Assembly: GCF_026151205.1 (NCBI RefSeq) | Contig: NC_087078.1 | Span: 9,688,675-9,752,674 of the forward strand | Direction: 5' to 3' | Source: Bolinopsis microptera | Taxonomy: Eukaryota > Ctenophora > Tentaculata > Lobata > Bolinopsidae | DNA length: 64,000 nt | Part shown: positions 14,155 to 42,700 of the stretch, one piece after another | How positions within the stretch are numbered: position 1 is the stretch's first letter | How the letters are laid out: each line of letters begins with the position of its first letter | Notes under the pieces: generated by a model | The model's input: only the letters and a program-made list of their open reading frames with translations | The model's database searches: none | What the model was told of the DNA's origin: nothing | Position numbers and translations under genes: made by a program

Positions 14155-14606
14155 TCTTACTATATATAAAGCGAGACAATAGGGTTCCGTACCATTTTAC
14201 TGACACCATGGCATCAACTTTAACGCGACTTTCCGCAAAAACCGTAAAAGAAATACAACTTTTTTGGCTGGGCCAAATGCTTTAATGACCTTCACATCAG
14301 CATAAAAAAGTAACAATTTTGCCAAGGAATAAGAATTTTAGTGCCCAAAATTTGGGCCCCCAAGTAGTGTCAAAAACGCGAATTAAATAGGTAATAATTG
14401 TTTTAGTCTCTCCGGTCTTGACACCACTTTAGGGTTAGACGGGTTCCTGCTAGTTAATTATAATTTCTTGGCCAATTTTTTATTTTTTCATGCTGATTTG
14501 GAGGCCATTAAAGCATTTGACCCAGTCAAAAAAGTTTCAGTTGACTGGTTTTTGCAGAAATTCGCGTTAAAGTTGATATATCGTCTCGCTTTATATATAG
14601 TAAGAT
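14155..14606. mobile_element. MITE with about 23-bp terminal inverted repeats
   Basis: The ends read TCTTACTATATATAAAGCGA and its reverse complement. Inner blocks (GCATCAACTTTAACGCG, CAAATGCTTTAATG) are also inverted between the halves, so the roughly 450-bp element folds back along most of its length. No coding capacity. I could not fix the target-site duplication. Confidence 0.75.
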
Positions 14607-15314
14607 GCCTGATAAACAGCCGAAAGTACATTGCAAGGATCTTCTGAAGTAGATGTGCAGTGCACTATAATTTAGTGTCCTAGCCAAAGTTATGGCTGAC
14701 TTTGGTTAAAATATAAATGAAAGGAGGTAGATTAAAATTTGAAACATCAATATCAAGCTGAATGCTGAGCTATTTTAATTCAAAATGAACCTAAAGTAAG
14801 TATATCGATATTCACACTTTATCTTCATTCTTCGGAAAAATGTCGATAAAATCGAAATCAGCGAAATAAATACGGGCATAAGACTAAAACAAGTGCCATG
14901 AAAAACGTAATCGAAAAGTTCATTAGTCGAAAATTTGAAATAAAAATCATACACACAATTCTATTTACTTGTAATTTAAATTTGTCAGATTCTTTAATTC
15001 TGTTTAACTCTGTTTTGGTTAAAGTTATCGTTTTTTACTGTTGGATATGAGATAACCAAGCTATTATAGTTAACGATTCTAAACTGCAGAAGCTTAAAAT
15101 CGTCGAAGCGAAGGAATTTGTCCCTCTTTCAATTCCGATATCAACAACAAAAATTGTTAGTTTAAAACAAGTTAAAGTTACAACAAAACTAATAAACTAG
15201 ATAATATACAACTTAAACTTTTTTGACTGGTTCAAATGCTTTAGTGGCCTAGTGACGGACGCCTGAAAACCTAACAAAGTCAAGGCTCTTAAAAAACCTA
15301 ATATCTTTAAGGAA

Positions 15315-15388
15315 ATGGGGAAAGGTTTGGAGGACGGTGTTGTTATCCGTAACGAAGCTGTATCTGACGTTAAAGATCTCGCTCACAT
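15315..15388 (+). CDS. OATP alternative first exon 1a
   Basis: ATG at 15315, 24 codons plus two bases, then AT|GTAAGT, a strong donor. The peptide is acidic (MGKGLEDGVVIRNEAV...). The exon ends in phase 2, the phase required by the common exon 2 at 18250, where the split codon becomes Ile. A CTTTAAG acceptor directly upstream (exon start 15312) would also allow it to be an internal exon entered in phase 0. Confidence 0.5.
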
Positions 15389-16806
15389 GTAAGTTTTTAT
15401 AATTATTGTACGAATCAATCAATCAACTTTTTCAGCTTGAAATAAAATTAAATGAAATTAAAAAATTAAAGCTTGTAATCTTTCGTTTAATTTTTAGCAT
15501 GAAGTAAACTAAATTTTAGAGGAAATAATAGTCGGTACTTGAAAACTGGATTGATTTTTATCATCATATTTTATGCTAAATATGCGTTTCTCACTTTTAA
15601 GAAGTTAATGACGAAGGATCTAATAATAACAGCTGACCATATTATACAGCTTTCGCAGATTCCATGTCTTATCAACATCTTATCAATTACAAGAACTGTG
15701 CGCCATTAACAAGTTAACATATCCAACAACGCTCACGTCTGGCATATAATATAGTATGGGGATAAATACCAATTCAGATTTCTAGTATCGATCAGACGTT
15801 TTATACTGATGGCCACAAACCCATTATCGGGGCGAGAGTCCTTAAGCTTTCAAGTGTGTCCATTATATACTTATAGTGATTATTAATTTAAGTTCAGCTT
15901 ACAAAAACTGATAACAACCTTATCTTTTATCTTTAAATTAAGGCTGATTGTTGCGATTAATTTGCTTTGATTGTGTTGCATCAATGAATTAAATTGCATG
16001 ATGGATTTAATGATTGCTGTCACAAATAACCAGTTGCAAATTTGGTGTTGTATCACGAACACGACTCCTATAATTCGTTTTACTTTTACCAGCAGGTGTT
16101 CCTTTTTTTCATAACTTCTGAACAACGTAGCTAACATGTAGGTAGTTAATTTAGTAACGTAAGATGAGAGAGTCTGAAAATTGTGATGTTGTTTATAACG
16201 AATTTTTGCTATATTCACATCGCTCTCGTGTAATAAGATCACCAGTTGTATTGATGGGTTAACGTTGTTGTTGTACATAATATGCACATAATATGCTAGT
16301 ATGCACACGTACCATCACTTAAAAACAACGTTGTTAAAATGTAATTTGTAGGTAATACTCTGCCAATAATAATCTTTATTACTGTGAGATTTAAAGCTGC
16401 AAATAAGCTTTGGAGACTTGGATAAATGCCATAGTGTTAAATAATGATTGCAGCTCAGGACTAAAACTCATTATTCTTGGCGATGCTAATAATTAAAGGA
16501 TCTTAATATAATATAATTAATGTTTCAATTGTATCGATTAACGTTTACTGTGACTTAATAGGCCATTAATTTCTAGCTTAACATAACCCCGATATTGCTA
16601 GGTAAATAATGATTAAATTAGTAGGTGAAGTCTAAGATGTCCAATCAGTCTATCAAAAACATTTAAGTTTGCACAGTCAATTATAACGATGCACTTTTGA
16701 TTGATCTTGCAATTATTTTTGTTCTTTTCCCTGATAAATCTTATTTACTATTTTCCCGCAAGTAATTCCCGATTAACCTTTCTTTGCTTGTTTGTTAAAG
16801 TTCGCT

Positions 16807-16910
16807 ATGAGCTCCAACAAAGTTAAGTTCTCCATCGACTCCAGTAAGGTCCATCACAACAGAGCTGCACAAGATTTCAGCACAGATCCGGAGGCCCCAA
16901 AGATGACATA
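16807..16910 (+). CDS. OATP alternative first exon 1b
   Basis: ATG at 16807, 34 codons plus two bases, donor TA|GTAAGT. The peptide begins MSSNKVKFSIDSSKVHHN and is cytosolic in character. It splices in phase 2 to 18250, completing a Tyr codon. I used it as the reference start because the context and donor are the best of the four. Confidence 0.6.
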
Positions 16911-19900
16911 GTAAGTTGTTCTCTAAATTCAGAATAATTCATTTACGAAGCTAGTGGTAATTGACATGTCATAGGAAGGTGAACTGAACCAACATGAATG
17001 ACAATCTAGACTCTAAGATGCGTTCAATCGTACAACATTTCATTTAATTATAATCAATATATGTGCGAGGTTGCACCTTCCTTGATTCCCGCTAAATTCC
17101 TAATCCGTGTTCATTGAATGGATGTGAAGTTTATCAGAACCTTATCAGAACTTGTAAGATAAAACCGTTTACAGCTCATGTATTAACCTCTTAATTTGGA
17201 GCCTTTAGGTATCCTCATTTGAGTAGCAAAAAATTGGTGCCTGATTTCGTTCTTTGATTTGACGCGTCCATTTCCAGTCTATTTCCTGCCCATTTCTATT
17301 TCGATCTGTTTTTGGCTCGTACTAGAACATGGAGTTTAACATGGATCAGCCTGAAAGCTCGTATCATCCTTTACAAACTACAGATGAAGGGTATGGCGAA
17401 CAACTTGTTGATAAGACAGTTTTTAACCTTGGTTTTAGACCAATATGGTAACCTTATACGTGCAGGAGGATCCTGAACGGTGCCCGTTTTCTTGAATTTC
17501 TCTCAAACGCGACCCTTTCTCGTTCATTTCTTGTCCATTTCCTGCATATTTCTAATTCAATCTGTGTTTTTTTTGATTTATTGGGTGGTATAGAACATGG
17601 AATTTGACAGGGAACAGCCTGAGAGCTCGTATCGTCCTTTACAAACTACAGATGAATGGTGTGGTTAATAATTTGTTGATAAACCTTGAACGTGCTGCAG
17701 GATCCCTCCCGGCTACCTTACCTCTGTAACCCTAACAGCTAACACATAAACTGTAGATTCTAGCCTTTACTCTAACCTTAACACCCTTTACTCTTACCTT
17801 AACACCCTTTACTCTTACCTTAACACCCTTTACTCTAACCTTAACACCCTTTACTCTAACCTTAACACCCTTTACTCTAACCTTAACACCCTTTACTCTA
17901 ACCTTAACACCCTTTACTCTAACCTTAACACCCTTTACTCTAACCTTAACACCCTTTACTCTAACCTTAACACCCTTAACACCCTTTACTCTTACCTTAA
18001 CACCCTTTACTCTAACCTTAACACCCTTTACTCTTACCTTAACACCCTTTACTCTTACCTTAACACCCTTTACTCTTACCTTAACACCCTTTACTCTTAC
18101 CTTAACACCCTTTACTCTTACCTTCACACCCTAATGACACACTATCTAAATCTTAATCCATAAGAGAGAACTTTATATCTGTATATGCAGTGTTTCGATC
18201 CTTAAGGGTTCAAACCCGGGCTGTTAATAAAGCGTTGGTTTACTTTCAGTGAGGTAGAAGAGAAGGATGACCGCAAAACCTCTCAAATGGGTGTGTTTGG
18301 GTGGAGACCCAGGTTTCTTGAGGTGAGCAGAATTTGTTTTTGTTTCTGTTTACATTTTGCGATCGTATCAAGGAACGACAATATCCTTTTCAAGGAAGCG
18401 CCCAGTTTGACGCCCAGTTTGACTCTAACCTCTCCTCAATTTCAGTGTCTTAACCAGCCGGTCATATTTGTTGTATTCTTTGGTATTGGTAATCTGTTTA
18501 CCGTGATGTCGTTTGGAGTCCTCAGCGTATACCTTACAACCTTAGAGAAAACATTCAACTTGAACTCTAAAGAAACAGGTTAGACTGTAAGCTTCACTTT
18601 CAAACCGCATAAAGTATAAAATTAATTTATATTTGTCGGTCAACCATTTAAACTTCTCGTTAAATCAACTCCCATTTTGATTATGGTCTAATGATTTGAT
18701 TAAAATCGATCAACTGCCAAGTTTCAACAAATTGATTTGATTTGGCAGGAAATAATTGAGAAATATGGTCCATGGTGCAAATGATAATTTGACGACAATA
18801 GCGAATATTTAGACAACTGACCAATTGAATTTGATTTTGCTTCGGGCATGTTCTCCAGCTGCACAATTTGTCTTTGTGAATAACAGCTGGGTTCATGCTA
18901 CTGGACAAAGCATGATTTTAATGATAATTTATCGTTTTCAGGAGTAATCCTCCTTGGGAACGACATATCTGGACTCTTCGCCTCACTTATCCTAGCCAAC
19001 TACTGCAGCTCTAAGAAAATCCGGTGGATAGCTATTGGCATGTTTGCTGTTGTATTGTCGTGTCTTCTACCAGCCATGGCTACTCTATTTGCAGAGGTTT
19101 CTATAACTAAGTGACTAAATTACTTCAATACGGTATTTCCAAGCTTGAAATATAAGACTTTTATAAAAACTATGACGATTAGACTAAGAGACAGGGAACT
19201 ACATACAATGGGCTACAAGAGAAATCAACTTGTCTGATAAGCAAAGGTTTTAATCAATCTAGCAAAGGTTTTAATCAATCTAGCAAAGGTTTTAATCAAT
19301 CTAGCAAAGGTTTTAATCAATCTAGCAAAGGTTTTAATCAATCTAGCAAAGGTTTTAATCAATCTAACAAATGTTTTAATCAACCTAGCAAAGGTTTTAA
19401 TCAACCTAGCAAAGGTTTTAATCAATCTAACAAAGGTTTTAATCAATCTAACAAAGGTTTTAATCAATCTAGCAAAGGTTTTAATCAATCTAGCAAAGGT
19501 TTTAATCAATCTAGCAAAGGTTTTAATCAATCTAGCAAAGGTTTTAATCAATCTAACAAAGGTTTTAATCAATCTAGCAAAGGTTTTAATCAATCTAGCA
19601 AAGGTTTTAATCAATCTAACAAAGGTTTTAATCAATCTAGCAAAGGTTTTAATCAATCTAACAAAGGTTTTAATCAATCTAGCAAAGGTTTTAGTCAATC
19701 TAGCAAAGGTTTTAATCAATCTAGCAAAGGTTTTAATCAACCTAGCAAAGGTTTTAATCAATCTAGCAAAAGTTTTAATCAATCTAGCAAAGGTTTTAAT
19801 CAATCTAGCAAAGGTTTTAATCAATCTAGCAAAGGTTTTAATCAATCTAGCAAAGGTTTTAATCAATCTAGCAAAGGTTTTAATCAATCTAGCAAAGGTT

Positions 19901-22900
19901 TTAATCAATCTAACAAAGGTTTTAATCAATCTAGCAAAGGTTTTAATCAATCTAGCAAAGGTTTTAATCAGTCTAGCAAAGGTTTTAATCAATCTAGTAA
20001 AGGTTTTAATCAATCTAGCAAAAGTTTTAATCAATCTAGCAAAGGTTTTAATCAATCTAGCAAAGGTTTTAATCAATCTAGCAAAGGTTTTAATCAAACA
20101 AACTGCCTGATTTCAGTATCCTGAAATGAACAAGGACGCCTTTGTACCGAGTATGGAGGGTATCAGAGGTTTATGTGACCTTAGTGAAAAGGGGTTCGGT
20201 CCACCGCCTCAGACAGATGGTAGCTATGCAGTTCGGAACCACGGGCTGTTCTGGCTCTTTGTTGCTGGATCTCTTGTCTTGGTAAATAGAGACGGGAAAT
20301 TTTATTTGAAATTGTGTATGATTGAAAAACATTTTATGGGTTTATTTGCTAGCAAGGACATTAATTCAATTTCCGTCTGAGTTAATACCAGATTGATTCA
20401 TATTGAACAAACGGTAATTCATACAATCCTTCTAAAACAATGTTAACACAGGGTATAGGTGGCTCACCCCCGGGTATAGCTGGCCCCACCTACATGGACG
20501 AAATGTACACACAGAAAGAGTTTGGTATCGCTATCTCCCTCCTGTACATAATCACCTTTGTAGGTAGGGTTCATTTCCATTGTTCTTCTTTTTAGGAACT
20601 GATATTAACCGAGTTTCTGATTCAGGATGTTACTGAAGATAGTATTGAAAATGTTTTAACACCTCAGAACTGCATGTATGACTACAGCTCAACCTGCTCA
20701 GTCTGACCAATTGGGAAATTTAAACCCACCTTTGTAGGGTTCCCCATCTCAGTGCTGTTCGCGGGGGCCTCCCTTGACATGTACGTGACTCTGGACCCCC
20801 CGGAGGGAATGAACCCCAGCAGACCCGAGTGGGTGGGGGCCTGGTGGTTAGGGTTCCTGGTGCCGGCTGTGGTGATCTTCTTTGTGAGCTTCATTGTCAT
20901 GTTGTTTCCTACTCAGATGCCTGCTGCTAAGGTCAGTGGTATAGTGTGTTTTGTAATTCAAAGCAAGCTTGTTTCTTTTTTCTCATTATTAGACTAGATT
21001 ATAGTCTTGCAGACATTCAATATCACATTATTGTAGATTATAGTTACACCAGATTATGCCATTTTATATTCCAACCATTGCAGAGGGTGTTATCAGACAA
21101 GATAAAAAAGGGTATCACAACTGCAGTGGAAAAGAAGAACGAACTCCATCGTTCGATATTGGATATAACCAGAGATACGATCCCTGTAGCGAAGAGGATA
21201 CTGAAGAACAAGTCCCTGAACTGCCTTGTGTTTGGGGACGCACTTGTTTTCTTACAGATTGGATCTATAAGTTACCTTCCAAAGATGTATGCCATAGCTT
21301 TTAGGTGAGTTGAATACAGGATCGTCCGAGCTCGATCATAAATTTACCAGGGTGTGGATCACAGAACTTCTTGTCTTATAACTTCTTGTCTTATAACTCC
21401 TTCTTAACTTCTTCTTAATCCCTTCAATTTTATCATTTCCAATGACAAACCAAGCAGAAGATATATATATTTCCCATTAGCAGTCAAGGACAAAAAAGTC
21501 ATACACCAAATGGACATTATATGTTATGAATTGTTTTACATCTTTTTAATAAAAAGATGTAAAACAATTCATAACACATAAAAAAGTTTTTATTCTGTAA
21601 AATGTGCTTAAATTAAATTTCTTGTTTCATTGATTTTACTTCAGACTAGGGTTCTCTGAGGTTGGAACAGTTATTGGAGTAACAAACGTGGTTGCTTTTG
21701 TTTTGGGTCTTGTCCTGGGTGGAGCTATCATGAGGATCAAAGATTGGCATCGTGAGTTATAGATTTAAACTAGTCTTATCAATTTCTTTCTTTATGTTTC
21801 TGAGTTATAGCCTTCATCATTAGTCCATTTTTACCTTACAAATATCATTCGTGCCATATTTACTTCTTATTTAAGATTTTCAGTCTTGGTTTCCTATCAA
21901 ATTCATTCACTGATCTCATTAACGGATCATCAGGTATCATGTAATCATCTTCTAAATCGTTCTCACTCAAACTTCAATATTTCAGCTAAAAAGTTGCTGC
22001 TAATTTACGCGGTAGCAGTCCTAGTGTCCACCCCCTTTACAGCAAGTCTTTTCTACCGTTGTGACTCAAATACAGTGGGAGGAGTCGACATTATATATCC
22101 CAACAGCAATGCCAGGTCAGACTAATCCCTTTGTTGAAGTCAACCTAATACCTTTCTTGAAGTTAGACGAAATTGTTGTATGGTCATATTGGCAGTTGCA
22201 GTTCCAACTGTTTATATTCTGATCTTGATTAATTTTGTTTTCTATACTTTACGTTTTTATGTATGTCAGTATTCGAGTATTTGTTCAGTATTTTAGCGCA
22301 GTATTTTAGGGCGGATTTTAGCGCACGATATTTAGTGCAGTAAGGTAGAGTTTTTGGTGATCAGGAGTTTTTTGTTTATTGTTTTGGATATTGGAGTGAG
22401 GGTTGAGAAATATTGAGATTGTACTTGCAAATAACAATTTTACAGTGATCAAGCTGATCTTATGTCCAATTTTCGATTTCAATTCAGTTGTTAAATGGCC
22501 ACTAGTTTTTAACATGAAACATTTTCAGTACCCCGGCGTTCCTAGACACATGTAACGAAGACTGTAAATGCAACACAGTATTCCCCTCTTTCGTGTGTGA
22601 CACCTCAGATCAAACCACCTACTTCTCCCAGTGTCATGCTGGCTGTTTGGGAGGAGAGCTTAACGACCCTGCTGACATCAAATCAGTGAGTCTTACCCCA
22701 CAAATCTGGAATCACCATAGTTACCATAGTGTTATATGTGAATTCTTAGTCGAAATCCTTGAAATCAAATTTTTCAACAAAAATCGATATGAAGTACGTT
22801 TGATCGGTTTTGTTGTGTTGGCTGGTTACAGTTACACCGGGTGCAAAAAATTTAACTACAGGGAGTAAAAGAGTACTCAGAATGTGGGTGTACAGCAGGG

Positions 22901-24734
22901 AAGACAGTGGTGCCAGGAGAGTGTATAACATATTTAACTACAGGGAGTAAAAGAGTACTCAGAATGTGGGTGTACATCAGGGAAGACAGTGGTGCCAGGA
23001 GAGTGTATAACATATTTAACTACAGGGAGTAAAAGAGTACTCAGAATGTGGGTGTACAGCAGGGAAGACAGTGGTGCCAGGAGAGTGTATAACATATTTA
23101 ACTACAGGGAGTAAAAGAGTACTCAGAATGTGGGTGTACAGCAGGGAAAACACTAAACAGTGGTGCCAGGAGAGTGTATAACATATTTAACTACAGGGAG
23201 TAAAAGAGTACTCAGAATGTGGGTGTACAGCAGGGAAGACAGTGGTGCCAGGAGAGTGTATAACATATTTAACTACAGGGAGTAAAAGAGTACTCAGAAT
23301 GTGGGTGTACAGCAGGGAAGACAGTGGTGCCGGGAGAGTGTATAACATATTTAACTACAGGGAGTAAAAGAGTACTCAGAATGTGGGTGTACAGCAGGGA
23401 AGACAGTGGTGCCGGGAGAGTGTATAACATATTTAACTACAGGGAGTAAAAGAGTACTCAGAATGTGGGTGTACAGCAGGGAAGACAGTGGTGCCGGGAG
23501 AGTGTATAACATATTTAACTACAGGGAGTAAAAGAGTACTCAGAATGTGGGTGTACAGCAGGGAAGACAGTGGTGCCGGGAGAGTGTATAACATATTTAA
23601 CTACAGGGAGTAAAAGAGTACTCAGAATGTGGGTGTACAGCAGGGAAGACAGTGGTGCCGGGAGAGTGTGGTTCCAGGTGTCAGACCCGGCTCTACATCT
23701 CGCTAACTCTGTCAGTCATAGGAACTATGATTAATTTCTCTGGGTACGCGGCTCATGCTACTGTTTATCAGGTATATTTACTTTTAATTTTACTTTTATT
23801 TAAACACTTATGCTAATATAATCGAGGCGATATCAAGAGCAAATTACCGTTTGTATTTTTGGTTTTATTTCACCAACAGTTTCCCTTTTTTAACTATACA
23901 GAGAGTGGTGACGACAACGTGAATATTGTTATTGTTGGATACAAAAATATTGTTCATGGGTTTACAAAAATATTCGTTTTAACCAGGCATTTGAAAATTT
24001 ACAAAAAGGGGCAATGTGGATATCAACAAGGTGATTCTACGCATCTACATGGTTCACCCTAATTAATCTTTTTAAATTTAAACAAGTATTTATAAATTTG
24101 CAGAGAGTTGTAGGCGAGGTGGATAGAACGGTGGCTCAGGGCTGGAGACAGTTTATCACCAGAGTGCTAGGAACCCTCCCAGCACCCATCCTATTCGGGT
24201 ACATCATAGACAACGCCTGTACTATCTGGAGGACTAACTTTGATGGGAAACAGGGAAATTGTTGGGTGTACGATTTGGATAGGTGAGACTTGTACAAAAG
24301 TATAAAGAATAGAAAAATGTCTATGTTGTTGAAATTTAATATAGTTTGTGCAACCTTCTTCGTATGATTCCAAAAAGGAATAATGAGTGAAAAACGTACG
24401 CCAAAAACTTTAACATATTGTTTTTGAGCAACATAATTGATTAAAAAGCAATTAATTAATAAGCAATTAATTAATAAGCAACATAATTAATAAATCACGA
24501 TACCGCTCATAGTGCATATGCCACGATTAATTTGTGTCCTTATAACCCAATAATCGTTACAGTTTGCTGGTTTGGTTTGTTTGGGTGCAGATAATTCTCC
24601 GTATTGGATCATCTATACTTTACTTTGCTGGCTGGTACCTATACCCTGAACCTACTCAAGAAGAATTAGAACGATACGAGGGACGGGCAGGTAGTAATGG
24701 ATACGAAATGGAAAGGACAGATTTGAAATCTTAG
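16807..24734 (+). CDS. Organic anion transporter polypeptide (OATP/SLCO family)
   Basis: Fourteen exons join without a frame error: 16807-16910, 18250-18322, 18446-18578, 18942-19096, 20117-20281, 20452-20563, 20738-20931, 21084-21304, 21645-21751, 21986-22115, 22529-22685, 23607-23771, 24104-24282 and 24563-24734 (TAG). The product is 688 residues, the usual OATP length. The family signature is intact as PEWVGAWWLGFL (residues 277-288). A Cys-rich Kazal-type extracellular loop follows (about 474-540, with CHAGC), then LGTLPAPILFG and the late C-x-W motif typical of transmembrane helices 11-12. Twelve membrane helices fit the hydrophobic pattern. OATPs move amphipathic organic anions across the plasma membrane; the substrate here cannot be told. 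The ATG at 16807 is one of four candidate starts. Introns carry three minisatellites, and the acceptor of exon 12 lies in one of them. Confidence 0.9.
17329..17390 (+). CDS. OATP alternative first exon 1c
   Basis: ATG at 17329, 20 codons plus two bases, donor GG|GTATGG. It encodes MEFNMDQPESSYHPLQTTDE and ends in phase 2; joining to 18250 completes a Gly codon. It is one of two diverged tandem copies of the same unit, the other being at 17597. Confidence 0.5.
17597..17658 (+). CDS. OATP alternative first exon 1d
   Basis: ATG at 17597, 20 codons plus two bases, encoding MEFDREQPESSYRPLQTTDE. It is a tandem duplicate of exon 1c with four substitutions in the first twenty residues. The donor TG|GTGTGG is weaker than that of 1c, so it may be decaying. 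Phase 2 is kept; joining to 18250 completes a Cys codon. Confidence 0.45.
17765..18131. repeat. 21-bp minisatellite in OATP intron 1
   Basis: About 17 units of CTTTACTCTAACCTTAACAC plus one base, with TCT/CTT variants and one short internal deletion. It lies between the first exons and common exon 2. The period is a multiple of three, which explains the long minus-strand open frame. Confidence 0.9.
19241..20096. repeat. 21-bp minisatellite in OATP intron 4
   Basis: About 41 units of GCAAAGGTTTTAATCAATCT plus one base, with few substitutions (AGC/AAC, AAT/AGT). It ends 20 bp before the acceptor of exon 5 at 20117. The 290-codon minus-strand open frame through it is a by-product of the period. 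Confidence 0.9.
21522..21576 (+). other. Perfect 26-bp hairpin in an OATP intron
   Basis: Arms 21522-21547 and 21551-21576 are perfect reverse complements with the loop AAT. It lies in the intron between the exons ending at 21304 and starting at 21645. It could be a young MITE remnant or a small-RNA precursor; nothing decides between these. Confidence 0.7.
22862..23667 (+). repeat. 82-bp minisatellite containing a splice acceptor and exon start
   Basis: Ten copies start at 22862, 22944, 23026, 23108, 23197, 23279, 23361, 23443, 23525 and 23607. All are spaced 82 bp except one of 89 bp (a 7-bp insertion in the fourth). Each holds the acceptor TTTAACTACAG, about 60 bp of the exon encoding SECGCTAGKTVVPGEC, and a junction GTGTATAACATA. 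Only the last copy runs on into the rest of the real exon 12 (23607-23771). Confidence 0.9.
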
Positions 24735-26279: not shown

Positions 26280-26877
<598 letters not shown>

Positions 26878-27399: not shown

Positions 27400-27686
27400 T
27401 GTTACAATCATCGAAAATCGTTCAGAAAGTTTATTTTTAGTTCAAAACATTCTCATTCAATGTCAAAGATGACAGGAATAAGAAATATTTATGTAGAGAT
27501 TTTTAAGAAATTTGCATAGAATACGCGCCAGCACTGTTATACGAAATTCGGGAAAAAACCCAAAATCGCCATATTCAGGTGCCTTAAAAACCACGTTAAA
27601 ATTGAGTTAGAGATCTGAAATGTTGCAGAGCGTCTAGATGTTGACCAAATCAGCTGCAAAAAAGTTTCAAGTTTCAAGAGTATCGG
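27400..27686 (+). repeat. Interspersed repeat fused to the Penelope ORF
   Basis: It matches 5160-5400 and the reverse strand of about 7290-7500. Similarity ends after GAGTATCG, where the Penelope coding sequence begins to diverge from the other copies. Confidence 0.65.
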
Positions 27687-29806
27687 TTAGAAAAACGCTC
27701 GACATACCCTCTCCCACATTTCATGGTCCCCTCCTCAAGACCTCACCTACCCCCAAGAAAGACACCACAGCCAAAACAGTGATCAACCTCTCTGGACAGA
27801 CCCTCTCCACAGCTGAAACTGACGTACTCTCCCTTGGACTGAAGTTCGTCCCGACACCCACCTCAGATCCTACCCCCGACCTGGCTCCCCTCATACAGAA
27901 TATCACTAAACAACTAGGAGAAGGCATGGAAGCCTCAGCCACATATCAGGTCACCTCTGTATTATCTAAATTTGACAATAAACGTGACATGACCACCGAC
28001 AATTTGACTCCACAACAACGTACCGCTCTTAAATCTTTAAAATCTAAGAAATCTGAATTGAAATTTCTTCCTGCTTATAAGGGCAACGCCACTGTTGTAC
28101 TTACTCACGATCAATACATAACCAAAGTTACCGACCACTTATCCTCAGGTAGTTACACCCTCTTAACGAAAGACCCCACTCAATCCGTTACCACTAAACT
28201 ACAGAAAGTCCTCAAGAAACTACACACCGACAAGAAGATCACGACCGACCTATACCACAAGATGCGCAACCTACATCCTAGATGGCCTCAACTTTACGGA
28301 CAACCTAAGATACACAAACCCGGCGCACCTATCCGTCCCGTAGTCAGCTTCTACAACACCCCCCTCCAAGCCCTCCACAAAGTCCTCGCATCTTTCCTCA
28401 AACCCCTAGCCCAGAACCCCTTACGCCTCAAAGACTCTTCCGACTTCAAACATCGCTTCGACTCCTCTCTCAATCCCTCCTTCCACTACCACGCCTCCTT
28501 AGACGTCCAATCCTTGTACACCTCCTGTGACATGCGCCTAGCCCTCAAAACTGTCATCTCCTCCTTTGAACAGAACCCCTCTCGTCTTCCCTCCAATGTC
28601 ACCACCACCACCATAGGCTCCCTTATCAACTTTTGCCTTGACAACTCATACCTTGAATTCAACGGCTCCTTCTACTCCCAAGACGAAGGTGGTACAATGG
28701 GATCCCCCCTCATTGTTGAACTAGCTGAAATCCGCCTTGCTGAAATCGAGACCTTAGCTTTATCCTCATGTCCTGACCCTCCGAACACTTACTCCCATTT
28801 CGTTGACGACGGCCTTGGATCTTTCAGAGACAGAAACCACGCAGAATCCTTCCTTACATTCCTTAACTCCCTTACTGAAGACCTCAACTTTACCCAAGAA
28901 CATCCCTCTACAGACGGAACTATACCCTTCCTTGACGTTCTCATCCACCCTGACAAATCCACATCAGTCTACAGAAAACCCACCCACACCAACCTCTACA
29001 CCAAGTACTCCTCCTGCACCACCAACTCATCTAAGAACGCAGTTATCCGATCACTGACCAGAAGAGCCCACAACATCTGCTCACCCCAACACCTTGACGA
29101 CGAACTCCAGACAGTACGACACGTTTGCCTCCAGAACGGCTTCCCTCCTCACCGCATCACCACCATCATGGACGAAGTACAACGGAAATTCACCAACCCC
29201 TCTCGCCACCAATCCCTAGCCTCATTCAACCGACAGACCCGTGAACATGCCCTTAGTGTTTCTCTTCCTTTCCATCCCTCCCTATCCAAACCCATCTCCA
29301 AGATACTCGGACAACACGACATCAAAGTCACCCACTCCTCTGCTACCTCCCTCCGCAACCTCCTCACCAAAACGAAGACCACACCCCCTACTCACCTCAC
29401 TCCCAACACCATCTACGAAATTTCCTGCTCACAGTGCCCCTCCAAATACGCCGGACAGACCTACAGACCCTTGGTCCACCGCATGAAAGAACACGAACGA
29501 TGTTACAGACTCAACAACGCCATCGACGAATCCACAGACAGAATCAAATCAGCCCCTGCACATCATGCCCTGACCACCGGCCACACCATCTCCTGGAACA
29601 ACATCGAAGTCCTCAAATCCCTCACCTCACGCTCCCAACTTGACCTCACAGAACACGCAGCTATACAAATACGACAACCAGCTATGAACAGAACAGACCG
29701 CGCACCCAAATGTAGTTCCCTCTGGGACCCCATTCTTCCTAAAATTGCCAAATCCTTAAAGTCCAGACCATCTGGCATTTCCTTCTCAACCTCAACAGAA
29801 GACTAA
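27638..29806 (+). CDS. Penelope-like retroelement polyprotein (RT plus GIY-YIG endonuclease)
   Basis: A 722-codon uninterrupted ORF. After a Thr/Pro-rich N-terminus, INLSGQTLSTAE and LGLKFVPTP are the conserved block found ahead of Penelope reverse transcriptases. The RT core shows GQPKIHKPGAPIRPVVS, GTMGSPL (about residue 351) and the catalytic FVDD (388-391; Phe in place of the usual Tyr). The C-terminus carries the endonuclease: IYEISCSQC (about 592), YAGQT, then RMKEH, that is the GIY-YIG fold with Cys residues typical of Penelope elements. It would copy its RNA at a nicked target. Codon use is strongly C-rich in third positions, unlike the AT-rich host exons. The first 17 or so codons, including the only early ATG, lie in an unrelated repeat, so the insertion is either 5' truncated or chimeric. 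Whether it is active is unknown. Confidence 0.9.
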   Translation: MLTKSAAKKFQVSRVSVRKTLDIPSPTFHGPLLKTSPTPKKDTTAKTVINLSGQTLSTAETDVLSLGLKFVPTPTSDPTPDLAPLIQNITKQLGEGMEASATYQVTSVLSKFDNKRDMTTDNLTPQQRTALKSLKSKKSELKFLPAYKGNATVVLTHDQYITKVTDHLSSGSYTLLTKDPTQSVTTKLQKVLKKLHTDKKITTDLYHKMRNLHPRWPQLYGQPKIHKPGAPIRPVVSFYNTPLQALHKVLASFLKPLAQNPLRLKDSSDFKHRFDSSLNPSFHYHASLDVQSLYTSCDMRLALKTVISSFEQNPSRLPSNVTTTTIGSLINFCLDNSYLEFNGSFYSQDEGGTMGSPLIVELAEIRLAEIETLALSSCPDPPNTYSHFVDDGLGSFRDRNHAESFLTFLNSLTEDLNFTQEHPSTDGTIPFLDVLIHPDKSTSVYRKPTHTNLYTKYSSCTTNSSKNAVIRSLTRRAHNICSPQHLDDELQTVRHVCLQNGFPPHRITTIMDEVQRKFTNPSRHQSLASFNRQTREHALSVSLPFHPSLSKPISKILGQHDIKVTHSSATSLRNLLTKTKTTPPTHLTPNTIYEISCSQCPSKYAGQTYRPLVHRMKEHERCYRLNNAIDESTDRIKSAPAHHALTTGHTISWNNIEVLKSLTSRSQLDLTEHAAIQIRQPAMNRTDRAPKCSSLWDPILPKIAKSLKSRPSGISFSTSTED

Positions 29807-31475: not shown

Positions 31476-34400
31476 ATGAGGATGCTACTGATGAGGATGC
31501 TACTGATGAGGATGCTACTGATACTGCTAATCTCTTCTCCCACTGTATCCAGCAGTAAGTATACCTTATTATTTTTTATATTAAGACCCAAGTTGGTTTT
31601 GACCTCCATTCACCCTCCCGCTTTTGCATATGATTTATACTACCAACATGTTATCGGGAGTAAATTTGAGTAATCCGACCTTCTTTTTATCGTGCAGAAA
31701 TAGAGAACGAAATCAATTTCCAAAAACCTCTTCGCTCAGGCAACGCAAAGTTCTATTTGCTTAACGGCAAGGAGCTCCAAACAACGAACGGTTTTGGCAT
31801 GCTGATCGTTCAGATGGACCAAAGCTGGGGGCCTGTTCTGAACGGCCTTGAAGCATACGGAGAGGACTGTTTGCCTGACCACCTCTGCAGAACAATGGGA
31901 TACAACCACGCAATCAGCTGGCTGGCACATCCAAACTCTACGCCAGGTAACTCCATGTTCACTTTCAACGACATCTCCTGCCCAGCGGACCATAATGTTA
32001 ACCACAATGTTAACCGCAATGCAAGCCACAATGTTAACCACAATGTTGACTGCAATGCAAGCACGCTGTATAGCATTAACAAGATAGAACACAAGATAGA
32101 ACACACTATTAACAAACAGGTAGAACGAACTATACATTTGTTTTGCGGTACATTTAGCGGATCATGTCCGATAGTTGAGAGGAATAACTTCCTTAAGAGA
32201 GTGTGCTTTGAAGATCTGGGTCTGACAGTACTCCAGTGCCCCTACTCTGACACTCTCTACATAACCCTTGATCAAGCTATCAACTACGCTAATTTCAATA
32301 AAGTCTGTGACAATGACCTTCATTTCTACCAAGGCTGTGGTTTTGGGAAATCCCAGGATATAGTAATGGACTCCGCAACATTTTGCAACAAATATATTTG
32401 TACAACTGAACAGAAAGTGAAAGAGAAAGTGTGGTACACTGGAGATCTCCCCGTCTGCACGATGTCATCTGACAGGATTTGTTTTGATCGACCATGTTAC
32501 CAGTCAATATCAATACATGATCAATCGAAATCTAGACTAGGCTGTTATAATCTAGATCTACCAGAGGAGTTGTGTGCTGGTACGAATGAAGCAAGAACCA
32601 CAGTGCAGCTGAGGAGCGGCCAGGTAGTGTACCAGTCTACTGTATGCAATGGTAAGTGTGATGCCCACTACAGATGTGAAGACGAAGCTTTCTGTGGCGG
32701 TTACCTGTACGGTGTGTACTGTGTTGGTCACCGTCACAACTTTAATTACGTTAAACCAAGTGAAGTGTACGAATATGTCTGCAACAGGCAGGACTCTCAC
32801 CTGTGCTTAACAAATGAGGTAGAAATAAAGTGTCCAGATCTTGAGTCCTTGCCAAGCCACGAAAAATGCCACAAGTTTACCGGTTCATTTAGAGAACTGA
32901 CTGGTTCCAGTTGGGTGGTGTCCATTCTGAACAGGACGAGATGTACTGCCCTCTAGGGAATCGACCTTTACGCTGATCCATACATGATCCCAGTGTGTAA
33001 TAACTTCCTGGACCAGACAAACTGCACAGATCCCAACCGGTCAAAAGTGACGTGTGAAGTGGGCGGGTATATCTCAACCATATCCGAATATTTTGTATGC
33101 CATGGCCAACTGAAGATCCCCTCGTTATGTGACAGTGGTATAGACCAAATCTGTGAAACATTATCTGCAACTTGTGAGATACATAAACACAGGATATGTG
33201 ATAAAATTGAGGATTGTCTTGATGGGACTGATGAGACATTAGCCATCTGCCGCACCATGACAAAGAAGGTGTGTCATAGAGCCTACAAGCACGAGCAGGC
33301 ACTGCAAATACCTCTTGAGTGGGTGGGGGACGGGGTGGAGGACTGTTTAGACGGGATTGATGAGGAGGATGGGTGGCAAACTTGTGGTATTGGTCGGACT
33401 GAGCGCAATGTAGTGTCAGTTAATCAACCCTGTGAGGAGGTCCTTCTTTGCAGGAATGACCAGACAGCCTTCGTAGAGTTTAAAGATCTCTGTGATGGTA
33501 TTGATACCTGTGGGCACGAGCAAGGGATCTGTAAGAGCTCACATCTTATCACATCCACATTTAACAACGCATTAACTGTTAATAAAGCAGCGGGAATTGA
33601 GAAGGTTTTCTTGTATTGCTTGCCTGGTCTTGAGAGCCTGCAGGAGATTGCAGGGCAATGCGTTGTCACTTGTCAGTGAAGTAAATCTATCAGGCATGGA
33701 GGTCTTCGGAGTCGAATCAGTTTTAACAATTTTCCGTCCTAATAAAACCATCAACTGCGATCATACCTTTGGAGAAATCTACGTGACACTGAGTTGTGCA
33801 GGGTATTACTATTGTGAAGACTCTATTTGCCCCTTGAAAAACAAGATCCAATACAATTCTTGTCCTCAGCAATATCTTAACAGAATATACACCGTGGCTG
33901 ACAATTCTTTCATTTCGTTCGTCACTAAATCAGGTGCTCATTACAAAAACGATTACTTCCGCTGTGATAATAACATTTGCTTAAACTATAACCAAGTCTG
34001 CAATGTGGTGAATGATTGTGGGGACGGCTCTGATGAAGAGAACTGCACTAACGTGTTTCAGTGTAAATCTAAAGAACAGCTGATCCCCATTACTGAGAAG
34101 TGTGATGGAAACACAGATTGTCAGGACTTCTCTGATGAATGTAACTCTGACTGCGGGAAAGATATCCTGCAGAACATGTTTCTCAAGGTCCTATGTTGGG
34201 TTCTAGCTCTTCTGGCCATAGTTCTCAACCTCACTACAATATTCAAAGCTTTAACTGATTTCAATGATAAAATGTCAAAAGCAGCTCTAAACAGCAAAAT
34301 GCTGATACTTCTCATAAACATAGGAGATCTGCTAACAGGAGTTTACCTGATGAATATAGCGGTAATGGACACGATAGTGTACGGGAGTAGCTACTGCATT

Positions 34401-35407
34401 GAGAGACTGGAATGGCTCACTAGTGCGCATTGTTCCTTGATTGGTGTTATCAGCACTGTTGGTTACCAGATCTCTCTGGTTACCATGACAAATCTCGGTC
34501 TAGCTAGATTGGCGGAGATAAAGAATGGGTCTATGATCAGTTATAGAGTGAACAAGCGAGCCATCCTTAGAATCTTCCTCCTTGTATCTATCATCGTTCT
34601 GATGTCAATCATCATAGCTGTAGCGCCGCTGCTAGAACAGTTTGAAGACTTCTTTGTCAATGGTATACCTATGACCCTTCAGCGAGATTGTTCATTGGAG
34701 CTCCTAGAAAATAAATCCATCTGAGCGTGTTGCAAGGGTACTACGGGAATATAAAGGGGGATTCTCTCAAGTGGGCAGCTATAAATGACCTTGTGAACGG
34801 AATGTTTTCTAATGATTACGGAGGTGATACACTCGGCCGGAGGAAGCTTGAATTCTACGGAAATGAAGGAGTCTGCCTCTTTAAATTCCTAGTTAAAGAG
34901 GATGACCCTCAGCGTATCTACACGTGGACTATCTTAACAATGAACATAATCTGCTTTGTTATAATCTCTGTGTGTTATATTCTGATAAACACGATCACTA
35001 AAGCTTCTTCCAGGGTCCTTACCCAGGATACATCCCATACAGGACAAAAGGTAAGGAAACGGAACAGACGGTTGCAGCAGAAAATATCCGTCATTATTGC
35101 CACGAATCTGCTGTGCTGGTTACCAGTAACCATAGTTTGCTGTCTCCATTCTGGTGCTATTATTGACGCAACCCCCCACTATCCTATCATATCAATAGTA
35201 TTTCTACCCATCAACTCTGTAATTAACCCTGTGTTATACAGTGAGTTTTTCAGTGGCTTGTGGAGTAGATCCTGCAGGAATGTGGCATGGATTTTCACGA
35301 GAAATAGAAAGGACCCGAGAATATTGCCTAATCAACTATCTACCAAACCGAAGGGGATCGTCGTTGAAATTGAAATGAGTAACATGAACACTATTCAAAA
35401 GAAGTAG
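31476..35407 (+). pseudogene. LDLa-repeat GPCR, tandem copy 1 (broken)
   Basis: Two exons: 31476-31554 (signal peptide, donor CA|GTAAGT, phase 1) and 31698-35407. After the signal peptide comes an SRCR-like module (SWGPVLNGLEAYGEDCLPDH...CRTMGYNHAIS), a long Cys-rich region, about five LDL-receptor class A modules (for example CLDGTDE, CGDGSDEENC) and seven membrane helices with CWLP in helix 6 and NPVLY in helix 7. The helix 2 sequence NIGDLLTGVYL resembles LRR/relaxin-type receptors such as GRL101, but no leucine-rich repeats are seen. Against copy 2 it has three lesions: TAG at 32954-32956 where copy 2 has Trp, a 7-bp insertion at 33668-33674, and a missing G after 34666. A 6-bp in-frame insertion lies near 33807. 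The C-terminal part is intact here, unlike in copy 2. Confidence 0.85.
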
Positions 35408-39738: not shown

Positions 39739-42700
39739 ATGCTACTGATGAGGATGCTACTGATGAGGATGCTACTGATGAGGATGCTACTGATGAGGAT
39801 GCTACTGATACTGCTAAACTCTTCTCCCACTGTATCCAGCAGTAAGTATACCTTATTATTGTTTTATATTTGTGTAGCCATATAATACCAAATTTCGGTT
39901 ATTTTAGACCCTAGTTGGTTTTGACCTCCATTCCCCCTCCCGCATCTGCATATCATTTAGCATAAAGCTGTTGTGTAGATATAAAAAACCTAGGATGGCT
40001 TCTAATCGGTAACCGATTAGTACTGATTTTATGATATTTGAAGAACAAAATGTTTTGAAAATTTTGAAAACGTATAGAAGGGGGGACAAATTAAGTGGCA
40101 TAAATTTCAATGGAGAAAAAATAAAAACCTTTGGGTAAATTTACATTTATGCTATTTTATGACACCCCCCCCCCCCCCCCCCCCCCCCCCAGCCTCATCG
40201 GCATGTTACTCTAACGTATACTCACCAGTGGCGTAACGTTGCCTGTTGGCGCCCCCTGCCAAAAAAAGCGCCCCCCTGTTGGCGCCCCCCTCCCCTTTTG
40301 GTGCCCCTCCCTAAAATTGAACAAATTAGGTGATTTTAGAGAATACGCCGGTAAAATCTCTAAAAAAGTGTGTATCTAGAGCAAAACGCGCAGTTTTGCT
40401 AGTACTTTAGTTAAGTTTTCGAAATTGTCCCACATTCAAACGACGATTTGGCGCCCCCCTAAGACGGCGCCCCCCTGCACAGCGGGGTCAGCAGGGCCTT
40501 TCGTTACGCCACTGATACTCACCTACAATCTGCTGTTAGAACATGAGTAGTATATGATGCATTTACTACTAATATACTACTAACATGTTATCGGGAGTAA
40601 ATTTCAGTAATCCGACCTTCTTTTTATCTTGCAGAAAAAGAGAACGAAATCAATTTCCAAAAACCTCTTCACTCAGGCAACGCAAAGTTCTATTTGCTTA
40701 ACGGCAAGGGGCTCCAAACAACAAACGGTTTTGGCATGCTGATCGTTCAGATGGACCAAAGCTGGGGCCTGTTCTGAACGGCCTTGAAGCATACGGAGAG
40801 GACTGTTTGCCTGACCACCTCTGCCGAACAATGGGATACAACCACGCAATCAGCTGGCTGGCACAACCCAGCCCCTACTCTAACTCTAAGTCTACGCTAG
40901 GTAACTCCATGTTCACTTTCAACAACATCTCCTGCCCAGCGGACCATAATGTAAGCTACAATGTTAACCACAATGTTAGTAACAATGCAAGCACGCTGTA
41001 TACCATTAACAAGATAGAACACACTAATACTATTAACAACCAGGTAAAACGAACTACACATTTGTTTTGCGGTACATTTAGCGGATCATGTCCGATAGTT
41101 GAGAGGAATAACTTCCTTAAGAGAGTGTGCTTTGAAGATCTGGGTATGACAGTACTCCAGTGCCCCTACTCTCACACTCTCTACATAACCCTTGATGAAA
41201 CTACCAACTTCGCTAATTTCGATAAGGTCTGTGACAACGACCCTCATTTCTACCAAGGCTGTGGTTTTGGGAAATCCCAGGATATAGTAATGGACTCCGC
41301 AACATTTTGCAACAAATATATTTGTACAACTGAACAGGAAGTGAAAGAGAAAGTAAAAGAGAAAGAGAAAGAGAAAGCGAAAGAGAAAGTGAAAGAGAAA
41401 GTGTGGTACACTGGAGATCTCCCCGTCTGCACGATCTCATCTGACAGGATTTGTTTTGATCAACCATGTTACAATTCAATATCGATACATGACCAATCGA
41501 AATCTAGACTAGGATGTTATAATCTAGATCTACCAGAGGAGTTGTGTGCTGGTACGAATGAAGCAAGAACCACAGTGCAGCTGAGGAGCGGCCAGGTAGT
41601 GTACCAGTCTACTGTATGCAATGGTAAGTGTGATGCCCACTACAATAACAGATGTGAAGACGAAGCTTTCTGTGGCGGTTACCTGTACGGTGTTTACTGT
41701 GTTGGTCACCGTCACAACTTGAATTACGTTAATCCAAGTGATGTGTACGAATATGTCTGCAACGGGCAGGACTCTCACCTGTGGTTAACAAATGAGGTAA
41801 AAATAAAGTGTCCAGATCTTGAGTCCTTGCCAAGCCACGAAAAATGCCACAAGTTTACCCGTTCATTTAGAGAACAGACTGCTTCCAGATGGGTGGTGTC
41901 CATTCTGAACAGGACGAGATGTACCGCCCTCTGGGGAATCGACATTTACGATGATCCATACATTATCCCAGTGTGTAGTAACTTCCTGGACCAGACAAAC
42001 TGCACAGATCCCAACCGGTCAAAAGTGACGTGTGAAGTAGGCGGGTATATCTCAACCATATCCGAATATTTTGTATGCCATGGCCAACTGAGGGTCCCCT
42101 CGTTATGTGACAGTGGCATAGACCAAATATGTGAAACATTATCTGCAACTTGTGAGATACATAAACACAAAATGTGTGATACAATTGAGGATTGTCTTGA
42201 TGGGACTGATGAGACATTAGCCATCTGCCGCACCATGACAAAGAAGGTGTGTCACAGAGCCTACAAGCACGAGCAGGCAGTGCAAATACCTCTGGAGTGG
42301 GTGGGGGACGGGGTGGAGGACTGTTTAGACGGGATTGATGAGGAGGATGGGTGGCAAACTTGTGGTATTGGTCGGACTAAGCGCAATGTAGTGTCAGTTA
42401 ATCAACCCTGTGAGGAGGTCCTCCTTTGCAAGAACGACCAGACAGCCTTCGTAGAGTTTAAAGATCTCTGTGATGGTATTGATACCTGTGGGCACGAGGA
42501 AGGGATCTGTAAGAGCTCACATCTTATCACATCCACATTTAACAACGCATTAACTGTTAATAAAGCAGCGGGAATTGAGAAGGTTTTCTTGTATTGCTTG
42601 CCTGGTCTTGAGAGCCTGCAGGAGATTGCAGGGCAATGCGTTGTCAGTGAAGTAAATCTATCAGGCATGGAGGTCTTCGGAGTCGAATCAGTTTTAACAA

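Follow-up and report, generated by a model that had tools for sequence, protein, structure and literature searches.

An OATP/SLCO transporter gene of the ctenophore Bolinopsis microptera appears to be preceded by a small bank of alternative start exons. Within the window (the whole stretch of DNA that was analysed, 64,000 nucleotides), four candidates, referred to here as a, b, c and d, could each supply a start codon and join the same exon 2. On balance, we lean towards the explanation that at least two of them (a and b, with c a probable third) are real start exons that exclude one another, each of which would be spliced to the acceptor at 18250, with d probably being a copy. This is a modest finding, drawn from sequence evidence. 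If at least two of the start exons are used, the gene would represent a compact case of OATP N-terminal diversity in an early-branching animal.

A complete OATP gene likely needs an upstream start exon

Comparisons of the predicted protein identify the window gene as an OATP/SLCO transporter gene. The protein holds a full-length Pfam OATP domain (PF03137; E 3.5e-107, residues 52-619 against profile positions 1-545 of 545), the best solved relative is SLCO2A1 (E 9e-51), and the Cys-rich loop can be aligned to SLCO2A1 as well. Start exons a, b, c and d, when joined to exon 2, give complete OATP proteins of 678, 688, 674 and 674 aa, respectively. The shared exons are the following:

18250..18322, + strand: exon 2, common to all; of its ATGs the first is out of frame and the second in frame
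18446..18578, + strand: exon 3, from spliced alignment
18942..19096, + strand: exon 4, from spliced alignment
20117..20281, + strand: exon 5, from spliced alignment
20452..20563, + strand: exon 6, from spliced alignment
20738..20931, + strand: exon 7, from spliced alignment
21084..21304, + strand: exon 8, from spliced alignment
21645..21751, + strand: exon 9, from spliced alignment
21986..22115, + strand: exon 10, from spliced alignment
22529..22685, + strand: exon 11, from spliced alignment
23607..23771, + strand: exon 12, from spliced alignment
24104..24282, + strand: exon 13, from spliced alignment
24563..24734, + strand: last exon with stop TAG, from spliced alignment

The acceptor of exon 2 at 18250 (tttactttcag/TGAGG), where the split codon is completed, lies at the 40th percentile of real acceptors. 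Exon 12 has ten repeated acceptors, and only the last one leads to the 674-aa protein. If the mRNA began at exon 2, the first ATG, which stands in a decent context, would be out of frame and would open an ORF of 38 aa; this gene therefore likely depends on a start exon further upstream.

The genome contains 64 OATP-like stretches, a number in which exons are counted singly and the window gene is included. Five intron-bearing paralogs (L033, L039, L040, L042 and L043) have an ATG within their equivalent of exon 2, and the start regions of L035, L037 and L046 are uninterrupted. The comparison covered long open frames only in the case of L036 and L038, and L045 and L047 were outside it; no start was identified in L044, and in L041 an ATG in the exon-2 equivalent is unconfirmed, as the exact string was not found. 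Unlike the paralogs read with an ATG in the exon-2 equivalent, the window OATP would carry its start codon on separate upstream exons.

Four candidate start exons fit exon 2 in phase

The candidate start exons are located as follows:

15315..15388, + strand: candidate start exon a, peptide MGKGLEDGVVIRNEAVSDVKDLAH(I), donor CAT/GTAAGT
16807..16910, + strand: candidate start exon b, peptide MSSNKVKFSIDSSKVHHNRAAQDFSTDPEAPKMT(Y), donor ATA/GTAAGT
17329..17390, + strand: candidate start exon c, peptide MEFNMDQPESSYHPLQTTDE(G), donor AGG/GTATGG
17597..17658, + strand: candidate start exon d, peptide MEFDREQPESSYRPLQTTDE(C), donor ATG/GTGTGG

From the ATGs at 15315, 16807, 17329 and 17597, the frames stay open for 74, 104, 62 and 62 nt, all of them 3n+2, and the introns begin with GTAAGT, GTAAGT, GTATGG and GTGTGG at 15389, 16911, 17391 and 17659. 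In every case a stop codon in the same frame precedes the ATG, and an AG is located 3, 6, 3 and 3 nt before the ATGs of a, b, c and d, ending at 15311, 16800, 17325 and 17593. The preliminary description of this DNA had proposed that four ATG-to-GT segments join exon 2 at 18250 in phase 2, and this was confirmed letter for letter, with full OATP proteins as the products. At the level of the sequence, at least two start exons are phase-compatible with the shared exon 2.

When the start exons were chained pairwise through the AGs nearest their ATGs, all 6 of the 6 splices tested ended after 27-48 aa, which argues that the start exons are mutually exclusive. In the explanation that we prefer, the start exons would be transcribed, each genuine one would be spliced singly to the acceptor at 18250, and the resulting proteins would have a common transporter body and 20-34 differing N-terminal residues. 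A search of the genome with peptide a (E<=10) gave no match besides itself, the same was true for peptide b, and the matches of peptide c were itself and d only.

Exons c and d align as one tandemly duplicated exon

Exons c and d are identical at 55 of 62 bases (89%), with no gaps. The similarity extends beyond the exons: identity is 83% over the 60 nt upstream (2 gap openings), 79% over the 150 nt upstream (14 gap openings), and 79%, gap-free, over the 24 nt past the donor. By this alignment c and d are one tandemly duplicated exon, and there would be at most three exon types and a copy. The donor of d (GTGTGG) scores lower than the donor of c, and d is probably a copy of c that is decaying or little used.

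Chance may account for part of the pattern

Because c and d are duplicated, the four fits to exon 2 are not independent. The preliminary description had regarded them as four independent fits, unlikely by chance, and this does not hold: by chance, a stretch of 3.72 kb should hold 1.37 segments in phase 2 with a donor score of at least 5, and 4 were seen (Poisson P 0.05). The null for this figure was 81 segments in 219,358 bases presumed non-coding, with both strands counted. There was no excess of ATGs when the phase condition was dropped (5.20 expected, 6 seen, equalled or exceeded in 43% of 54 null windows); with the phase condition, 1.73 were expected and 5 seen, one of them nested in c (equalled or exceeded in 3.7% of the 54 null windows). 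It needs to be mentioned that in the chance counts an exon was allowed to end inside an in-frame stop codon, that nested ATGs with a common donor were merged (17341 into 17329), and that the donor threshold came from an earlier donor matrix.

Other features (GTAAGT, AG distance, codon score) and their thresholds were picked after the exons had been seen, and are post hoc. A GTAAGT donor in phase 2 is expected 0.12 times and was seen twice, in a and b, by such a post hoc criterion. With a codon score of at least 0 added, the expectation is 0.017, based on a single null segment among the 219,358 bases (both strands), and a and b are seen. For an AG at most 6 nt before the ATG, 0.475 segments are expected and 4 seen (P 0.0015, with c and d counted twice). 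A donor score of at least 5 combined with a codon score of at least 0.1 leaves only a (0.17 expected, P 0.16); if an AG within 6 nt is also demanded, 0.10 are expected (P 0.097), and GTAAGT with a codon score of at least 0.1 likewise leaves only a, with 0 null cases.

Codon use and splice-site quality differ among the candidates

The codon score of exon a is equalled or exceeded by 1.5% of 200 null segments and that of exon b by 8%, strand-specificity being absent in b; exons c and d score like the null, that is, like non-coding DNA, and the coding-like windows found at c and d are in a different frame. The GC content is 0.46 in exon a versus 0.31 and 0.22 in its flanks, and 0.47 in exon b versus 0.31 and 0.31. 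When open 72-nt windows are ranked across 14700-18180, leaving aside the minisatellite, the top two fall within a and b and share their frames. The preliminary description had envisaged one OATP body with four N-termini. What stands of it is the upstream start exon, of which more than one is likely real; the number of four does not, c and d being one duplicated exon with non-coding-like codons.

Splice sites were scored with matrices built from 40 introns chosen by eye from spliced alignments (12 of the window gene, 9 of the C7 paralog, 9 of L040 and 10 of L043); L041 and L042 were omitted entirely, as were low-confidence introns at gaps or ends. An acceptor matrix with small pseudocounts was overfitted, and it was replaced before the acceptor percentiles were computed. 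The donors of a-d fall between the 17th and 28th percentile among the 40 family donors. Upstream of the start codons, a good acceptor is found before a only:

15310..15311, + strand: AG ahead of exon a, a candidate 3' splice acceptor for SL trans-splicing or a 5'UTR intron

This AG scores 6.9, which is matched by 2.9% of random AGs and corresponds to the 55th percentile of real acceptors. The AGs before b, c and d are weak, those of b and d scoring below all 40 real acceptors and that of c at the 3rd percentile. The strong form of the idea, with real acceptors ahead of all four ATGs, was rejected, as only the AG of a scores as a typical acceptor.

SL RNA genes may make separate promoters unnecessary

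SL RNA arrays of the ctenophore type are present in the genome (40 scored matches of 334 candidates). The end of the SL exon and its donor are the same across 6 aligned copies, bar one extra T in one copy, the SL 3' end being ...AAATAATTTGAG, and the fold of the SL RNA was equalled by 0 of 200 shuffles. The SL-end pattern occurs at 17 places in the genome versus 4 in a reversed control; 11 of the 17 were inspected, of which 5 (L048-L052) resemble SL RNA genes and 6 do not. The SL exon resembles the 3' part of the Hormiphora SL (CAACACTACT, then AAAT(T)AATTTGAG at the end; PMC8527503), and a search of this genome for the initial 30 nt of the Hormiphora SL, allowing up to 3 mismatches, gave 0 matches. 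In Hormiphora the leader was found on 56% of Iso-Seq reads, stated as a lower bound (PMC8527503).

Since SL RNA genes exist in the genome, a 5' end needs no promoter adjoining the exon, and the 5' ends of the window gene may come from SL addition instead of four promoters. In the C7 paralog, a strong acceptor (score 10.1) precedes the ATG by 7 nt. For the window gene, we suppose that 5' ends would be formed partly by SL trans-splicing, the good acceptor being before a only, and partly by separate transcription starts. The gene could show whether ctenophore SL trans-splicing adds protein isoforms, beyond capping.

Known systems and the possible role of the tails

Several variable first exons of matching phase, joined to common downstream exons, are found in UGT1 and the clustered protocadherins, whose variable exons code for large functional domains (large ectodomains in the protocadherins). 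The window gene is alike in that its variable first exons would share downstream exons in phase; in contrast, its variable part consists of tails of 20-34 residues, encoded within 2.4 kb.

The N-terminus of OATPs is cytosolic. Tails c and d carry a YxxL-type motif, which reads YHPL in c and is absent from a and b, and the tails could thereby alter trafficking. By eye (YxxL, TTDE), the c/d tail seemed homologous to the N-termini of paralogs, but this was rejected as evidence, the resemblance not being significant: in 2000 shuffles, with a joint score against three paralogs, shuffled tails scored as well in fractions of 0.16 (d) and 0.19 (c). The same test gave 0.155 for exon a and 0.248 for exon b.

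Such an arrangement was said in the preliminary description to be unfamiliar in OATPs, but, according to PMC10051083, human SLCO1B3 has an alternative first exon, which removes 28 N-terminal residues; the liver type is found in the plasma membrane, and the cancer type is in lysosomes instead. This OATP is thus similar in having an alternative first exon and an altered N-terminus, and it provides a precedent for relocation of an OATP by an N-terminal change. It differs in having two forms and one 28-residue truncation, whereas the window gene could draw on as many as four coding start exons that differ in sequence. Among the titles and abstract openings listed in a literature search, none dealt with first exons of SLCO2B1, and those listed for ctenophores reported no alternative first exons or OATPs, which is not a claim of absence from print; the ctenophore innexin paper PMC9949713 contains the terms SLCO and organic anion transport twice each.

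Different 5' ends or isoforms arise through the choice of trans-splice acceptor in C. elegans sma-9 (PMC2904332) and in Schistosoma mansoni genes (PMC5832876), and vertebrates are without SL trans-splicing, according to PMC7986045. Those cases of alternative SL trans-splicing are a candidate parallel only, and the SL here is of the ctenophore type. A bolder idea, which we hold to be a long shot, is that the gene has split its start exon into a bank of mutually exclusive ones, and that SL acceptor choice on one pre-mRNA decides whether the tail bears the YxxL-type sorting signal (c, d) or none (a, b). If true, SL trans-splicing would switch where a membrane protein is sent, in an animal lineage that is among the earliest to branch.

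Alternative explanations

It is possible, although rather unlikely, that there is a single real start exon, most likely either a or the c/d type, and that the rest are relics or segments open by chance. Chance alone would yield the plain pattern 1.37 times, c/d is one duplicated unit with null-like codon use, the donors of b and d are weak, a codon score of at least 0.1 leaves a alone, and five paralogs have their ATG in the exon-2 equivalent, all of which agrees with one exon. On the other hand, two GTAAGT phase-2 segments are more than the 0.12 expected, and the c/d frame is open and gap-free, in contrast to the upstream 150 nt with their 14 gap openings. A distinctly less probable scenario, which partially overlaps with our preferred one, involves one promoter and one long pre-mRNA, on which the choice of an SL trans-splice acceptor before each ATG would set the N-terminus. 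It is not favoured by the finding of a typical-scoring acceptor before a only, and the donors of upstream start exons could be expected to compete through cis-splicing; what speaks for it are the SL RNA arrays, the AGs 3, 6, 3 and 3 nt before the ATGs (4 such segments versus 0.475 expected), the acceptor (10.1) 7 nt before the ATG of the C7 paralog, and the leader on at least 56% of Hormiphora Iso-Seq reads (PMC8527503).

The original proposal of four alternative first exons, all used and each with its own promoter, receives little credence from us, as d copies c with a lower-scoring donor (GTGTGG) and the codons of c and d are non-coding-like, even though all four geometries hold and the weak acceptors before b and d suit conventional first exons, with transcription starts close by, better than SL acceptors. 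Finally, translation might start at the in-frame ATG of exon 2 (MGVFGWRPRFLE...), if SL trans-splicing to 18250 were followed by leaky scanning. This second ATG (TCTCAAATGG) would give a protein of 641 aa, and 18250 is a good acceptor (40th percentile), but the first ATG met in exon 2 has a decent context and the wrong frame, and the M belongs to a Q-M-G motif common to four paralogs, in which it is internal, so that we find such a start highly improbable.

Repeats near the start exons

Two repeats were noted around the candidate start exons:

14502..15250, no strand assigned: MITE-like element; its terminal inverted repeats measure 42 nt, and its end lies 64 nt before the exon a ATG
17764..18132, no strand assigned: 21-bp minisatellite in intron 1

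The name MITE is our tentative label for the former element. A DNA search of 15200-17760 against the genome gave, beyond the query itself, 39 scored matches (of 1080 candidates), all of them in query bases 2-52, and these fall at the repeat arm 15209-15250.

Four candidate start exons precede one OATP body

The window gene encodes an OATP/SLCO transporter: the product of its 13 shared exons covers the entire Pfam OATP profile (E 3.5e-107), its nearest solved structures are those of SLCO2A1 (best E 9e-51), and spliced alignment of this product recovered the identical exon model with GT-AG introns.

14502-15250, no strand: MITE-like element, inverted ends of 42 nt, 93% complementary
15315-15388: candidate start exon a
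16807-16910: candidate start exon b
17329-17390: candidate start exon c
17597-17658: candidate start exon d
18250-24734, + strand: 13 shared exons of the OATP gene (protein spliced alignment, GT-AG introns)

The four ATG-to-donor segments are present exactly as the preliminary description had them, an in-frame stop precedes every ATG, and their geometry is real. Joined to exon 2, a, b, c and d give proteins of 678, 688, 674 and 674 aa. The gene probably requires a start exon ahead of exon 2, since an mRNA starting there would first present an out-of-frame ATG (38-aa ORF); the second ATG, which is in frame, would yield 641 aa. When two start exons were chained via the AG nearest the second ATG, all six combinations tested ended after 27-48 aa; the start exons are thus mutually exclusive by frame.

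The genome searched (264.65 Mb, 232 contigs; nine large contigs seen, 16.4-23.6 Mb) yielded 64 scored OATP-like stretches, single exons being counted separately and the window gene included. Of the genes read, only the window gene would carry its start codon on an exon separate from exon 2: in five intron-bearing paralogs (a sixth, L041, was not confirmed) the ATG lies within the exon-2 equivalent and no intron occupies the intron-1 position. The paralog on contig C7 has a strong acceptor (score 10.1) 7 nt before its ATG. Some paralogs are long intronless open frames; those at C2:12503903 (726 aa), C6:13272796 (661 aa) and C7:11761813 (668 aa) are single ORFs and possibly retrogenes. By eye, the c and d tails resemble paralog N-termini, down to a YxxL-type motif (YHPL, YRPL against YKKL and YEKL in two paralogs and YNKV in a third), but this likeness was not significant when tested.

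Phase-2 open segments compared with chance expectation

We counted ATG-open segments of 45-160 nt with a phase 2 end and a donor score of at least 5 in presumed non-coding sequence taken from the window and paralog loci of this genome (219,358 bases, both strands counted). This null may include real exons and would therefore be conservative; the criteria were chosen post hoc, once the exons had been seen.

Table. Segments expected per 3.72 kb and segments seen
Criterion; null segments; expected; seen; P
Donor at least 5; 81; 1.37; 4; 0.05 (Poisson)
Plus AG at most 6 nt before ATG; 28; 0.475; 4; 0.0015
GTAAGT donor; 7; 0.119; 2 (a, b); about 0.0065
GTAAGT and codon score at least 0; 1; 0.017; 2; -
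Donor at least 5, codon score at least 0.1 (less favourable cut); -; 0.170; a alone; 0.16
The same with AG (less favourable cut); -; 0.102; -; 0.097
Donor at least 5, AG and codon score at least 0.2 (less favourable cut); -; 0.034; -; 0.033

In a smaller null, 1.73 phase 2 ATGs were expected and 5 seen, a level reached by 3.7% of 54 windows; for any phase, 5.20 were expected and 6 seen (reached by 43%). The ATG excess thus appears confined to phase 2.

The four candidates differ in quality

On a codon score trained on 4577 codons from OATP and other open frames, a reached 0.227 and b 0.114, levels matched by 1.5% and 8% of 200 null segments, and c and d scored -0.133 and -0.165 (matched by 52.5% and 61.5%); with the larger null the scores were 0.210, 0.071, -0.148 and -0.192. 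The score of b is not strand-specific, its reverse frames giving 0.22, 0.14 and 0.28. When open 72-nt windows across 14700-18180 are ranked with the minisatellite set aside, the top two fall in frame within a and b, and the third and fourth overlap c and d in a different frame. G+C is 0.46 in a and 0.47 in b against 0.22-0.31 in their flanks; no such contrast with flanks was found for c and d.

Against splice matrices from 40 introns of the OATP family, the donors of a, b, c and d stand at the 28th, 17th, 28th and 23rd percentile. The AG nearest the ATG of a scores 6.9 (55th percentile of real acceptors); those of b, c and d score -2.7, -0.1 and -4.0, the lowest real acceptor being -1.0, and c has another AG 51 nt upstream (4.7, 17th percentile).

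The earlier claim of four independent fits does not hold, because c and d are a tandem duplicate: their exons are identical at 55/62 positions without gaps. Identity is 79% over 150 nt upstream (14 gap openings), 83% over the nearest 60 nt (2 gap openings) and 79% over 24 nt past the donor (none); for random pairs the mean is 71% and the maximum 83%. Genome searches using the a, b and c tails returned no other site, except that c matched d. The best reading of these sequence features, which we hold at slightly better than even, is that the gene would have two or three genuine start exons.

Start-exon choice may change the N-terminal tail

A single start exon at a time would be spliced to 18250, giving a common transporter body with differing N-terminal tails. 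The 5' end of a would plausibly be made via spliced-leader (SL) addition at 15311; for b-d, separate transcription starts would fit the data no worse than SL addition. The genome does carry SL RNA gene arrays. Their SL exon (...CAACACTACTATATAACAAATAATTTGAG, then GTAAG) is constant in six aligned copies, save one extra T in one of them, and copies beyond these six vary more. Downstream of it come, in order, one stem-loop, a CATCTTTTGG stretch, which we take to be an Sm site, and another stem-loop; the fold was better than that of every one of 200 shuffles (z -3.5). The only Rfam match, to SmY RNA, was below threshold (E 0.009-0.02). The 40 matches scored among 334 first-look candidates lie on contigs C13 and C5, and the arrays (L048-L052, L059-L063) are mostly spaced by about 0.7-0.9 kb on C5 and parts of C13. 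In sequence, this SL exon is similar to the 3' portion of the Hormiphora SL, as given in an excerpt of PMC8527503.

The preliminary description likened the arrangement to UGT1 or protocadherin-type loci and not to OATPs. Alternative first exons are an already known kind of arrangement, OATPs included: according to an excerpt of PMC10051083, human SLCO1B3 has a liver form at the plasma membrane and an alternative-first-exon form that resides in lysosomes. On this precedent we infer that the N-terminal tail may alter trafficking of the window OATP.

Repeats and neighbouring features

The MITE-like element adjoins a, with 64 nt between its end and the ATG, and its right arm has 39 further copies among 40 matches scored of 1080 candidates. 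An 82-bp unit (22850-23669, about 10 copies) includes the acceptor of OATP exon 12 together with the 5' portion of that exon, and intron 11 therefore holds nine extra copies of that 3' splice site. Over the 12 nt compared (atttaactacag) the ten acceptor copies are identical; splicing to the last one leads to the 674-aa protein, and the other nine truncate it at 534-572 aa. With 21-bp minisatellites in intron 1 (17764-18132) and intron 4 (19240-20097), three introns of the gene thus carry expanded arrays.

Further downstream lie a perfect GT dinucleotide array of 595 bp (26282-26876) and a 722-aa open frame (27638-29806), which gave nothing significant in Pfam and is presumably reverse-transcriptase-like with a GIY-YIG-like end, Penelope-like. 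A receptor gene is present in two similar copies (31670-35407 and 40702-44350; translations compared by eye), both with LDL-receptor class A repeats; the first is split across four open frames, and a rhodopsin-type 7TM domain was found in the second.
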